Shown: positions 202-4,829 of the stretch, piece after piece
Position numbering within the stretch: the stretch's first letter is position 1
Layout: every line of letters begins with the position of its first letter
Assembly (NCBI GenBank): GCA_025359945.1
Contig: JANYDD010000085.1
Location: 1 to 64,000 of the forward strand
DNA from: Bdellovibrio sp.
GTDB taxonomy: Bacteria; Bdellovibrionota; Bdellovibrionia; Bdellovibrionales; Bdellovibrionaceae
Direction: 5' to 3'
Length of the DNA stretch: 64,000 bases
Position numbers and translations under genes: made by a program
The notes under the pieces: generated by a model
Databases searched by the model: none
What the model was told of the DNA's origin: nothing
Seen by the model: the letters and a program-made list of their open reading frames with translations, nothing else

Positions 202-1185
202 ATGCGATCTAGAAACCTTTATTTTTTCGTTTTAATTATGATTGGCCAATTGCCGACGTGGGCCCAATCTCAAAACGCGAGCAACGTCATTAACGTTGAG
301 ATTTCAAAAGTGCTTACGGTACTGAACTTATTGAATGCCGGCAACTACTGCCAAAATAGACGCATTTCAGAATTTCCCAGCGAACTTGAACTTCCACGGT
401 TTGACATATCCTTTCGAGATACGAACTTGTGTGATGGTAAAATGAATTTTAGAAAAATCTGTAATATTGCTACCGATTCTTGTTGGCGCAGAACCGGGAG
501 TGATGCTTGCTGGAAGCCATCCGTTGAAAGATTTCGAGACGTTAGCTTTGCAAAAAACGTTTACGAAAACCTTGCTCAGCTTTTTGAAAAAGTAACCCAA
601 AAAGAGCCATTTCTCTCCACTTGCTGTGGCCAAGATACCGATTGTAGGACGAGTTTTTCTAATACTAAGCTGAAAATCATTAAAGGACTTACGTTAAATG
701 ACCAAACCGCCCACTATGATGTACTTCAAAAAACAGTCCGAATGTCTGAAGGCAAGGTCTTGGGAATGCAAAGTGTAGAAGGCTTGGAACGTGTGGTGCT
801 ACATGAGCTTGGACATGCTTGCCAATTCAGCCAAAAGCCGGACATTGGAAACCACTTTGATCTTTCCTATTGCAGTCGCAGATTAGCCTCGGATCCCATT
901 TTCGATTCAAAAGTCGGGGCCACTATCCGGGCGTGTACTGAGAAGTCACATAAAAAAGCGGCCGAGGAAAGTGGCGGGGAAGTCTGCTTAGGAGGTTGGA
1001 TGAGCGAAGCCTTTGCAGATTTGATTTTTGCGAAACACATCGATTCCATCACAGTATTTGCATGGACCTGCGTGGGCGACACGGATGTGCGTCATGGGCC
1101 CTCCGCTGCTCATATGGATTGCTGGCTGCAAGATCCTAAAAACCAACAACTGCTTTGCGAATCAAAACCCAGAGAAACAAAATGA
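202..1185 (+). CDS. secreted zinc metallopeptidase-like protein (gluzincin type)
   Basis: The N-terminus (residues 1-22, ending near TWA-QS) looks like a Sec signal peptide. A zincin motif HELGH lies at residues 201-205, and SEAFAD at about 268-273 supplies a plausible third zinc ligand (Glu269), the gluzincin arrangement. About 15 cysteines suggest a disulfide-rich exported protein. I do not recognise a named family, and the substrate is unknown; cell-wall or prey protein degradation would be a guess. The start is the first ATG of the frame and has no clear Shine-Dalgarno site. The stop overlaps the start of the next gene by 4 bp (ATGA), implying translational coupling. A second secreted zincin of a different subtype lies near 51 kb. 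Confidence 0.65.
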   Translation: MRSRNLYFFVLIMIGQLPTWAQSQNASNVINVEISKVLTVLNLLNAGNYCQNRRISEFPSELELPRFDISFRDTNLCDGKMNFRKICNIATDSCWRRTGSDACWKPSVERFRDVSFAKNVYENLAQLFEKVTQKEPFLSTCCGQDTDCRTSFSNTKLKIIKGLTLNDQTAHYDVLQKTVRMSEGKVLGMQSVEGLERVVLHELGHACQFSQKPDIGNHFDLSYCSRRLASDPIFDSKVGATIRACTEKSHKKAAEESGGEVCLGGWMSEAFADLIFAKHIDSITVFAWTCVGDTDVRHGPSAAHMDCWLQDPKNQQLLCESKPRETK

Positions 1186-1666: not shown

Positions 1667-2704
1667 TCATAAACAGCCGTTCAACACAAGATTTTTTAAA
1701 TAGATATGGGTTTGGGAATCTTTTTGGAATGAAAATAAAAGTTTTTGTGAATTTTCGTCGTAGCTGGGGTGAGAGAACTGGCCCTCTTTCGACGACAGCA
1801 AAATCTTCTGGCAGTTTTTTTCTCCGTCCCAAAAAATAATTTGTGCTTGGCGATTGGTTTTGTCCGCCGTTTCAAAAATAAGCTGCCGGTTTTGCGTCGA
1901 CAGAACAAAGAAACTTCGAACTACAAAATTCCATTTATTCAAACTAGCCCAGTCCTGCTGCAAACCTTGAGGTCCCCGAGACCCGCCGGTCACTTTGGCC
2001 ATCAATTCGGTTTGCCCATCATGCACAATCAAGGCCGAAGTCTGATTTTTAAAGACCCAAAACCCTAAAACGGGATAAGGCAGCGAATTTTCTACGATGC
2101 TTGTCTTTTGATTTTTCCAAGATAACTTTTGAACCTGAGCTACATTGTCGGTCTTTTGTTGTAAAAAATAAACTTCTTCGCGAGATTTTGAATCCGCCCA
2201 AAGCTGGCCGTCAAAGCCTTGATGAAAGGTCATCCGCTGAGGCGGTATATTTTTAGCTTGGGTTAAGTAAACTTCGGTAAAAAGTCGTTTGTCCTCGGGC
2301 CCGCCCTCTGGATTCCGCGGATACAGCGATCTAGGCGATTCTTTATCTTCGTCGGTCGTCGACACAAACAGAAATGTTTTTTCCTGCACCGGCAAAACTT
2401 GAATTGTTTCACCATCACTAAACTGAAGACGCTTTTCTTTTTGGGTTTTTAAATCGAATGAATAAATTTGAGAATTATTATGCAGACTTCGTCCGCGCGA
2501 CAAAAAATAAATTAAATCAGAACCCTCTAAGCGAATTGGGTATTCGTTTTGACCAACCCACGTGACTTGAGTTCCAAACTGCGGATCCTCGCGCAAACCC
2601 ACAACCCGCGCCAAGGGCACTGTCGGCGCTGAATGACAAGCATTGATTAGAAAAGCCAACACCAGTGGCGCGACTGTCGGAATTGTCTTTAGAATTTTTT
2701 GCAC
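1667..2704 (-). other. possible internally started lipoprotein within the mutY frame
   Basis: Within the mutY reading frame, a GTG at 2704 (right after an in-frame TTG) would start a protein with N-terminus MQKILKTIP followed by a hydrophobic stretch and the lipobox-like FLINAC (Cys codon at 2638-2636), a near-textbook lipoprotein signal. The remainder resembles a periplasmic TolB/PD40-type propeller (repeated SxD..IYFL-like strands). No strong Shine-Dalgarno site precedes it. If used, this start would yield a free lipoprotein from the same frame. Confidence 0.4.
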
Positions 2705-3676
2705 CAAATTTGTGGGGCTTCGTTTTTTCCATTCGGAAGCCGGCAGCCAAACCCAATCTTTTTTATTTTTTCTTGAGCTTTGAATCTTTGCCAACGAATT
2801 CCCAAAAGTGACAAAAATTTTATATTTAGTAATCGAGTGAACGAAATTAAATTTTTTGGGCTGCGCTTTCAGTTTTTTAAATTCTCCGGGTAGGATCCAC
2901 TGATTTTTTAAAAACGGGGCTTGCTTATTTTCTGTGAATGCCAAAGTTTTATTTTTCCATTTTAATTCAGCCTGCCAGTGCCAAATCTCGACCGGCGATT
3001 TTGCTTTCTTTATGGGAAAGTCATCCATCGATTTTGTTTGCAATGCGTAGCAATTTGAATTCCATGGACAAACTAAACAGGCCGGTCGCTTAGGCGTGCA
3101 AATCGTCGAACCCAAATCCATCAGCGCTTGATTCAGATCTCTTGCCGAAAAACCTTTGACCAATTGATCTGCGAAGTCTTGAAAATAGTCTCGGCCCCGA
3201 GTTGTCCAAGCGGGCACAACAGCGCCCTTCCATCGGCTTAAAACACGAATCACATTGCCGTCGACCACCCCAACATTTTGGTCAAAAGCAATGCTGGCGA
3301 CAGCGCGTGCCGTGTAGGGCCCAAATCCTGGCAAGGGTAAAAGCTGCTGAAAAGTTTCTGGAAAATGGGCAAGCCGGTTGAGTGCCACAGCAGATTTATG
3401 TAAATTTCGGGCTCTGGAATAATAGCCCAAACCGGACCAGACTTCGTAGACGTCTTCTATAGAAGACGTTGCCAAACTTTCTAAGTCGGGAAATTTTTTT
3501 ACAAAGCGATCAAAATAAGGCCGCACGGCTTGTACTGTCGTCTGCTGAAGCATCACTTCTGAAATCCAAATCAAATACGGATCGCGAGATCCTCGCCACG
3601 GCATTTCACGCGGGTTTTGAAAATACCATTCCAAGAGTTTCATGGTTAGTGAACTAAGCTTTAATTTTTTGACCAT
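1667..3676 (-). CDS. mutY: MutY adenine glycosylase fused in frame to a beta-propeller lipoprotein
   Basis: Counting from the upstream ATG at 3697, residues 20-330 are a complete MutY. The catalytic Glu is in SEVMLQQT, a helix-hairpin-helix segment is around LPGFGPYTA, Asp is in VVDGNVIRV, the [4Fe-4S] ligands are C200, C207, C210 and C216, and a NUDIX-like C-domain ends near residue 336. MutY removes adenine opposite 8-oxoguanine. The frame then continues without a stop through a lipoprotein-like signal (LVLAFLINAC, Cys354) into about 320 residues with TolB/PD40-like strands. The ATG at 3676 has GGTGGA upstream and is preferred over 3697. Normal MutY is about 350 residues. Either this is a true fusion with a membrane segment, or two genes have lost the separating stop. 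Confidence 0.85.
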   Translation of the reverse strand: MVKKLKLSSLTMKLLEWYFQNPREMPWRGSRDPYLIWISEVMLQQTTVQAVRPYFDRFVKKFPDLESLATSSIEDVYEVWSGLGYYSRARNLHKSAVALNRLAHFPETFQQLLPLPGFGPYTARAVASIAFDQNVGVVDGNVIRVLSRWKGAVVPAWTTRGRDYFQDFADQLVKGFSARDLNQALMDLGSTICTPKRPACLVCPWNSNCYALQTKSMDDFPIKKAKSPVEIWHWQAELKWKNKTLAFTENKQAPFLKNQWILPGEFKKLKAQPKKFNFVHSITKYKIFVTFGNSLAKIQSSRKNKKDWVWLPASEWKKRSPTNLVQKILKTIPTVAPLVLAFLINACHSAPTVPLARVVGLREDPQFGTQVTWVGQNEYPIRLEGSDLIYFLSRGRSLHNNSQIYSFDLKTQKEKRLQFSDGETIQVLPVQEKTFLFVSTTDEDKESPRSLYPRNPEGGPEDKRLFTEVYLTQAKNIPPQRMTFHQGFDGQLWADSKSREEVYFLQQKTDNVAQVQKLSWKNQKTSIVENSLPYPVLGFWVFKNQTSALIVHDGQTELMAKVTGGSRGPQGLQQDWASLNKWNFVVRSFFVLSTQNRQLIFETADKTNRQAQIIFWDGEKNCQKILLSSKEGQFSHPSYDENSQKLLFSFQKDSQTHIYLKNLVLNGCL

Positions 3677-3726
3677 AATTATTTGTCCACCCGGCATTGA
3701 TTTCTGTCAAAAGCAATTGATCCATT

Positions 3727-3893: not shown

Positions 3894-4829
3894 ATGAAAT
3901 CAAAAAAATCTTTCCTTCCGTTAAGCGGACGAGAATTTCCACGGTTTTCAGCGATTAAAACTTTTTTCAGATTGCCGCAAGCACAAGTCTCGGAAAACTT
4001 TGACGTGGCTTTGATGGGAATTCCATTTGACGGAGGGACCTCCTACCGACCCGGCGCCCGATTTGCCCCTTCGCAAGTGCGCGAGGCCTCAAGCCTTGGT
4101 CGAAGTTTTCATCTTGAGCAAAATATCTCGATTTTTGAAAAATTCAGTTGCGCTGATATTGGCGATTGTTCGGTGGTTCCAATTGATTTGGCAAAATCCT
4201 ATCAAAAAATTGAAAAAACGGCCGGTCAGGTTCTAGAGACAAAGAAAAAACTTTTTTCGTGCGGCGGAGACCATTCGATCACGCTTCCACTTTTACGCGC
4301 TTTCAAAAAAAAATATAAAAAACCTCTTCGCCTGATCCACTTTGATGCGCACTTGGACACATACCCTGCAGCTTGGGACTGCGAATATCATCACGGAGCC
4401 TTTGCACGCCACGCGATTGACGAAGGACTGATCGACTCCAAGTCATCGCTGCAGATCGGAATCCGCGGGCCCTTGGCCGCCGCCAGTGACCTTAGCTTTT
4501 CGAAAAAACATCAACTTCCATTTTGGTCAGTGCACGATCTGCGAAGCAAAAATTTGAAAGATCTTTTAAAGAAATTAAAATGGGACGATCGACCCACCTA
4601 CATTACCTTCGATGTCGACTGTCTTGATCCCGCGTTTGCGCCTGGGACCGGAACCCCGGTCGTCGGAGGACTAACCACCTATGAAACTCAAAGAATTCTG
4701 CAGACCTTGCCAATAAAAAATTTAGTGGGGGGAGACGTGGTCGAAGTTTGCCCCGCTTACGACGTTTCTCAAATCACATCGCTAGCAGCTGTCGACGTCC
4801 TATTCCAAATGCTCTGCCGCCTGGATTAA
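3894..4829 (+). CDS. speB: agmatinase / arginase-family ureohydrolase
   Basis: This 311-residue protein has all the binuclear manganese motifs of the ureohydrolase family in order: GGDHSIT, HFDAHLDTY and FDVDCLDPAFAPGTGTP. Length and the agmatinase-like spacing (substrate loop YHHGAFARHA) fit SpeB, which converts agmatine to putrescine and urea. Arginase, guanidinobutyrase and formimidoylglutamase are alternatives that cannot be excluded by motif. GAGGGG lies about 12 bases upstream of the ATG. It stands alone, divergent from mutY and convergent with the next gene, with no polyamine genes adjacent. Confidence 0.88.
   Translation: MKSKKSFLPLSGREFPRFSAIKTFFRLPQAQVSENFDVALMGIPFDGGTSYRPGARFAPSQVREASSLGRSFHLEQNISIFEKFSCADIGDCSVVPIDLAKSYQKIEKTAGQVLETKKKLFSCGGDHSITLPLLRAFKKKYKKPLRLIHFDAHLDTYPAAWDCEYHHGAFARHAIDEGLIDSKSSLQIGIRGPLAAASDLSFSKKHQLPFWSVHDLRSKNLKDLLKKLKWDDRPTYITFDVDCLDPAFAPGTGTPVVGGLTTYETQRILQTLPIKNLVGGDVVEVCPAYDVSQITSLAAVDVLFQMLCRLD

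Follow-up and report, generated by a model that had tools for sequence, protein, structure and literature searches.

In Bdellovibrio sp., the DNA-repair enzyme MutY continues, in one open frame and without a stop, into a lipoprotein export signal and a TolB/PD40-type beta-propeller. The stretch of DNA analysed (64,000 nucleotides of contig JANYDD010000085.1, from here on the window) carries this in-frame architecture as a feature that we confirmed to be real and beyond chance, since its internal, positively flanked lipobox has no second example in 334 kb of the same genome, whose long open frames span about 90,800 residues, and since 10 relatives are built alike. We consider it probable that one chain is made, that its internal signal inserts and that Lgt and LspA process it before Cys354, which would yield a lipoprotein and a membrane-tailed MutY.

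Results

The open frame and its MutY half

The frame lies on the minus strand at 1667..3697 and encodes 676 aa, with its stop codon at 1669-1667, its first ATG at 3697 and a second in-frame ATG, an alternative start, at 3676. An initial reading of the sequence alone (the sequence-only reading) had placed the fusion at 1667-3676 and had given no strand; the frame is indeed open with no stop, while the start moves to 3697 on the minus strand. The succession proposed there, a MutY end, then the LINAC lipobox and some 320 residues of TolB/PD40-like sequence, is seen directly in the 676-codon frame. Across 1667-3676 the plus strand is closed by stops throughout, and coding on that strand was rejected for this reason. 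The window genome is a draft assembly of 106 contigs. A protein from a relative (G009) aligns with residues 9-668 of the window frame over its full length, with no stop between, and both genomes have as neighbour a divergent agmatinase/arginase-family gene (in the window at 3894..4829, plus strand; family assigned by inspection of the translation), which makes the locus orthologous. Elsewhere in the window, 202-1185 (plus strand) encodes a putative zinc metallopeptidase, an exported protein that bears HELGH (HExxH).

The MutY catalytic domain (HhH-GPD; 3032..3646, minus strand) was matched by TIGR01084 (residues 18-272, E=2.4e-74), by PF00730 (2.6e-19) and by solved MutY structures (residues 17-237, best 1.6e-53), and AF2 modelled it with pLDDT mostly 85-97. 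Catalytic Glu47 (SEVMLQQT) and Asp146 (DGN), as well as Fe-S cysteines 200/207/210/216, are present and are invariant across 10 aligned fused proteins. At 250.4 bits, the match stays below the TIGR01084 equivalog cut-off of 286.5 bits, which is passed in only 7 of 14 control genomes; TIGR01084 is nonetheless the best-scoring family, and our assignment of the first half of the frame to MutY rests on that ranking, on motifs and on synteny, and not on the cut-off. The C-terminal Nudix-like domain (2678..3016, minus strand) is complete to its last helix, with strands at 237-319 and a helix at 330-338 modelled confidently by AF2, and its end aligns with relatives whose MutY terminates a few residues further on. 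A genome search returned the fused protein as the sole MutY, the second match being a shorter, weaker relative that is presumably endonuclease III.

Two details of the C-terminal domain may be added. The window has the motif HSITKYKIF (minus strand, about 2838-2812) where most relatives have HSITHHDIF, and some unfused relatives share the window form; this site possibly corresponds to the 8-oxoG-reading FSH loop, with Lys replacing His. The fused MutY of G044 (L023:1441-3720, plus strand) has a low-complexity Asn/Thr/Ala/Asp insertion, NTNTNTNANANANSNADADTN, directly upstream of the last helix.

The junction and the propeller

The last MutY helix, PTNLVQKILKT (residues 328-338; 2684..2716, minus strand), is homologous to the PSSLIQKAL termini of separate MutYs, and among aligned fused proteins P328 and L331 are invariant and K334 nearly so. 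The proposal that the same codons serve as MutY end and as lipoprotein n-region was borne out, the helix carrying positive residues just before a hydrophobic core. This core and the lipobox (2636..2683, minus strand) read IPTVAPLVLAFLINA followed by Cys354, ending ...PLVLAFLINAC with the Cys codon at 2638-2636; the Cys is invariant in aligned fused proteins. The features of a type II signal are all found (a net charge of +5 upstream, a mean hydropathy of 2.07 and the lipobox LINAC), in an internal and not an N-terminal position, and AF2 places, at low confidence, a separate helix at 342-353 after a turn, which coincides with the hydrophobic core. Homologues of LspA are present in the window genome. 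A second LspA-like match (G000:C69:53160-53570) lies inside a 375-codon open frame and is possibly another LspA fusion.

The only candidate internal starts available in the window are TTG 2707 and GTG 2704 (2702..2707, minus strand), 22-23 residues before the lipobox Cys; the GTG named in the sequence-only reading is thus present, directly preceded by the TTG. A search for a Shine-Dalgarno sequence serving either start found nothing longer than AAG.

The mature lipoprotein (1670..2638, minus strand) is a predicted TolB/PD40-type beta-propeller, an identity that is weak from the single sequence and clear at family level. By itself the window propeller gave a weak TolB model match (4.9e-6) and no PF07676 match at E<=0.01; 32 of 41 propeller homologues match PD40 (PF07676), and the family profile built from the homologues matches solved TolB structures at 1.6e-28. 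For the propeller, the AF2 model came from a shallow alignment and cannot be relied on, with pLDDT mostly <50. The TolB equivalog TIGR02800 scored 25.7 bits, below its cut-off of 343 bits, and the true TolB of the genome is located elsewhere (C90). Two cysteines of the mature part, residues 629 and 675, are invariant across the 41 propellers, as would be expected if the domain is exported and oxidised. When 291 genomes of the phylum were searched, strong relatives of the propeller were confined to the same class.

The locus across Bdellovibrionales

Examination of 125 loci among 141 genomes of the order showed that mutY and the propeller lipoprotein form a conserved gene pair, the lipoprotein usually lying directly after mutY. 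The locus occurs in three states: (i) two genes, separate or overlapping by a few bases (typically ATGA); (ii) an out-of-frame overlap of about 55-170 nt, in which the lipoprotein starts within mutY; and (iii) an in-frame fusion without a stop. The separate or out-of-frame overlapping state is usual, and fusion is less common, being present in 11 genomes of 7 genera and 4 families (G000, the window genome, and G007, G009, G025, G044, G046, G095, G101, G135, G136 and G137; that of G025 was read from a partial contig). Unfused congeners exist for G009 (G026), G095 (G059) and G046 (G134). When mapped onto a 125-row MutY tree, the fused state calls for 7 changes, at least 2 of which are forced by strongly supported branches. 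With respect to the idea that relatives might always keep the two genes apart, the comparison cut both ways: many do, yet 10 genomes besides that of the window are fused with no stop. The distance from the last MutY helix to the lipobox Cys is 60-138 nt at fused and 56-245 nt at separate loci, so that the geometry is kept and only the frame differs.

In many relatives (L021, L025, L051, L062, L066, L089 and others) the lipoprotein begins within mutY, some 70-92 nt ahead of the mutY stop. At several of these loci (L051, L062, L066 and L089) the start is apparently an out-of-frame ATG that arises where an A precedes a conserved Trp codon, TGG; the last MutY helix would then be dual-coding with the lipoprotein n-region. 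Programmed frameshifting at the long out-of-frame overlaps was set aside, as most of them offer a credible ATG start, in many cases together with a Shine-Dalgarno sequence.

Age and constraint of the fusion

Between the fused proteins of G046 and G136, dS is 1.3-3.3, at or near saturation, while dN is about 0.12-0.28, and this low dN holds in MutY, junction and propeller alike; both halves of the fused proteins are under purifying selection. Another fused pair, G007 and G025, shares 64-66% protein identity. A frame kept over saturated distances and found alike in independent assemblies argues against both an accidental stop loss and a shared error. That the fusion is an assembly error or a very recent, functionally meaningless stop loss is therefore highly implausible: it draws on the draft state of the window genome, and it has to contend with ten other fused genomes, the saturated divergence between fused pairs and the disappearance of ATG and Shine-Dalgarno sequences from fused loci. 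The recent stop-codon loss suggested in the sequence-only reading is refuted by the 11 fused genomes in 4 families and their saturated synonymous sites.

One chain or an internal start

An ATG lies 13-42 codons before the lipobox Cys at 1 of 10 fused loci versus 69 of 82 separate ones (Fisher p=5e-6), and an ATG with a Shine-Dalgarno sequence of at least 4 bases at 0 of 10 versus 44 of 82 (p=0.001), both p-values ignoring the relatedness of the genomes and hence being optimistic. At the fused loci L023, L032 and L035, the stretch 13-42 codons before the Cys lacks any ATG, GTG or TTG with positive charge after it, and this absence, unlike the p-values, is observed directly. For comparison, lipoproteins picked by pattern in the window genome (a small sample, from 334 kb) start with ATG in 14 of 17 cases and have a Shine-Dalgarno sequence of at least 4 bases in 9 of 17. 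A single translated chain is well supported by these patterns of start signals as the best reading in general, and it is the likelier one in the window.

The alternative is a pair of in-frame overlapping genes, in which the full-length chain is made while most lipoprotein comes from TTG 2707 or GTG 2704 and would read M-(V)QKILKTIPTVAPLVLAFLINAC. The signal so formed would be canonical in length and charge, many relatives begin the lipoprotein inside mutY, albeit out of frame, and G007, G025, G046 and G136 share the TTG at the corresponding Leu, so that weak internal initiation is possible in these genomes and in the window. Yet the window has no Shine-Dalgarno sequence beyond AAG to set beside the predominant ATG starts of lipoproteins in its own genome, and with standard start codons the three fused loci that have none usable could not work in this way, which makes the overlapping pair an unlikely account. 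The suggestion of such a pair in the sequence-only reading keeps its TTG and GTG in the window; it lacks a Shine-Dalgarno sequence there and a usable standard start at L023, L032 and L035. Even internal initiation would leave MutY stopless with its signal attached: with a single mutY in the genome and no stop to end it, every MutY molecule carries the signal when it is synthesised.

Discussion

The fused locus can be understood from an old Bdellovibrionales pair, mutY and a downstream propeller lipoprotein, in which the mutY stop has been lost in several lineages. In the single-chain reading, the last MutY helix (P-x-x-L-x-x-K) runs straight into the hydrophobic core and acts as the signal's n-region, and translation, as is strongly supported, would yield one chain. 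MutY would fold on the cytoplasmic side as Sec inserts the internal signal in an N-in/C-out orientation; the conserved lipobox and the presence of LspA suggest that Cys354 would then be lipidated by Lgt and the chain cut before it by LspA. Cleavage would release a periplasmic propeller lipoprotein and leave MutY with a C-terminal membrane helix of about 15-20 residues, tethering it at least temporarily to the inner membrane. The fusion would also fix 1:1 synthesis of two proteins that are coupled via overlapping genes in relatives. More speculatively, an RseP-type intramembrane protease may later free MutY, a release made conceivable by the description of E. coli RseP as removing signal peptides from the membrane (PMC8144685).

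Whether the chain is cut is the point on which a permanent two-domain protein would differ, with an uncleaved anchor, a cytoplasmic MutY and a periplasmic propeller that senses or positions it. The joint constraint on frame and both domains over long times would fit such a protein, as would the charge pattern KKR...K before the TM segment, which suits an N-in/C-out topology. An invariant lipobox Cys would, however, be needless in an uncleaved protein, and most relatives make both proteins separately, so that a joint function is not required; we regard the permanent anchor as improbable. The conservation of the lipobox Cys in all aligned fused proteins makes a cleaved polyprotein the likelier form, and, with the two invariant mature cysteines, it suggests that the propeller still undergoes export, lipidation and cleavage. 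The membrane-tethered repair enzyme envisaged in the sequence-only reading thus survives in part, in that every MutY from the frame carries a signal helix, and gives way to the cleaved form as regards a lasting fusion. A bolder version of the polyprotein reading, in which MutY is its obligate cytoplasmic head, anchored and working at the inner membrane, in an amount and at a site linked to an envelope propeller, and in which this arrangement arose repeatedly among relatives of predatory bacteria, is doubtful, and we offer it tentatively.

The fused protein combines features of several known systems. Like MutY (TIGR01084, HhH-GPD), it has the catalytic Glu/Asp, four Fe-S cysteines and a C-terminal Nudix-like domain; unlike MutY, it has no stop past the last helix and runs into an export signal and a second protein. 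Its propeller resembles TolB in that the family profile matches solved TolB and is of PD40/TolB type, and differs in being predicted to be lipid-anchored, in showing no TolB N-terminal domain and in being distinct from the TolB on C90. The Bdellovibrio mutY-lipoprotein pair (e.g., B. bacteriovorus kdesi, L147) encodes both of these proteins, likewise with MutY first, but in two genes, typically with a 4-nt overlap (ATGA), an ATG and an AAGG-type Shine-Dalgarno sequence. FbcH of Bradyrhizobium is a cytochrome b/c1 polyprotein separable by signal peptidase, and as one frame encoding two proteins with an internal signal peptide as separator it is the closest working analogue; both of its parts are membrane or periplasmic respiratory subunits, whereas the window joins a cytoplasmic DNA-repair enzyme to a lipoprotein whose signal is of type II (LspA). 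Our literature search found no paper on MutY joined to a lipoprotein, and no precedent for an internal lipobox or for Lgt/LspA acting after a folded domain of 330 residues. Judged from its sequence, the fusion would be a signal-peptidase-separable polyprotein whose new trait is that a DNA-repair enzyme comes first.

One would not expect an exported lipoprotein to share a chain with a soluble repair enzyme of the GO (8-oxoguanine) system. If the polyprotein reading is true, (i) a type II signal can recruit its n-region from the last helix of a cytoplasmic enzyme, (ii) LspA can act as a polyprotein-splitting enzyme, and (iii) a DNA glycosylase can work while bearing a membrane tail. The occurrence of separate, out-of-frame overlapping and fused states at one orthologous locus offers a natural series from overlapping genes to fusions.

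The neighbourhood of the pair varies in one further respect. Most relatives carry a third gene behind the pair, which encodes a conserved exported protein (AAPFPVTSSSILTDP...GLF...HGF; e.g., L002:905-1441, minus strand; L147:4925-5563, plus strand), and the copy of the window genome lies elsewhere (G000:C58:38962-39468, 29% identity). In genus g3 (L014, L049, L056, L078, L079, L085, L091, L093, L099 and L100) there is no propeller after mutY, and the gene of the third exported protein follows mutY directly.
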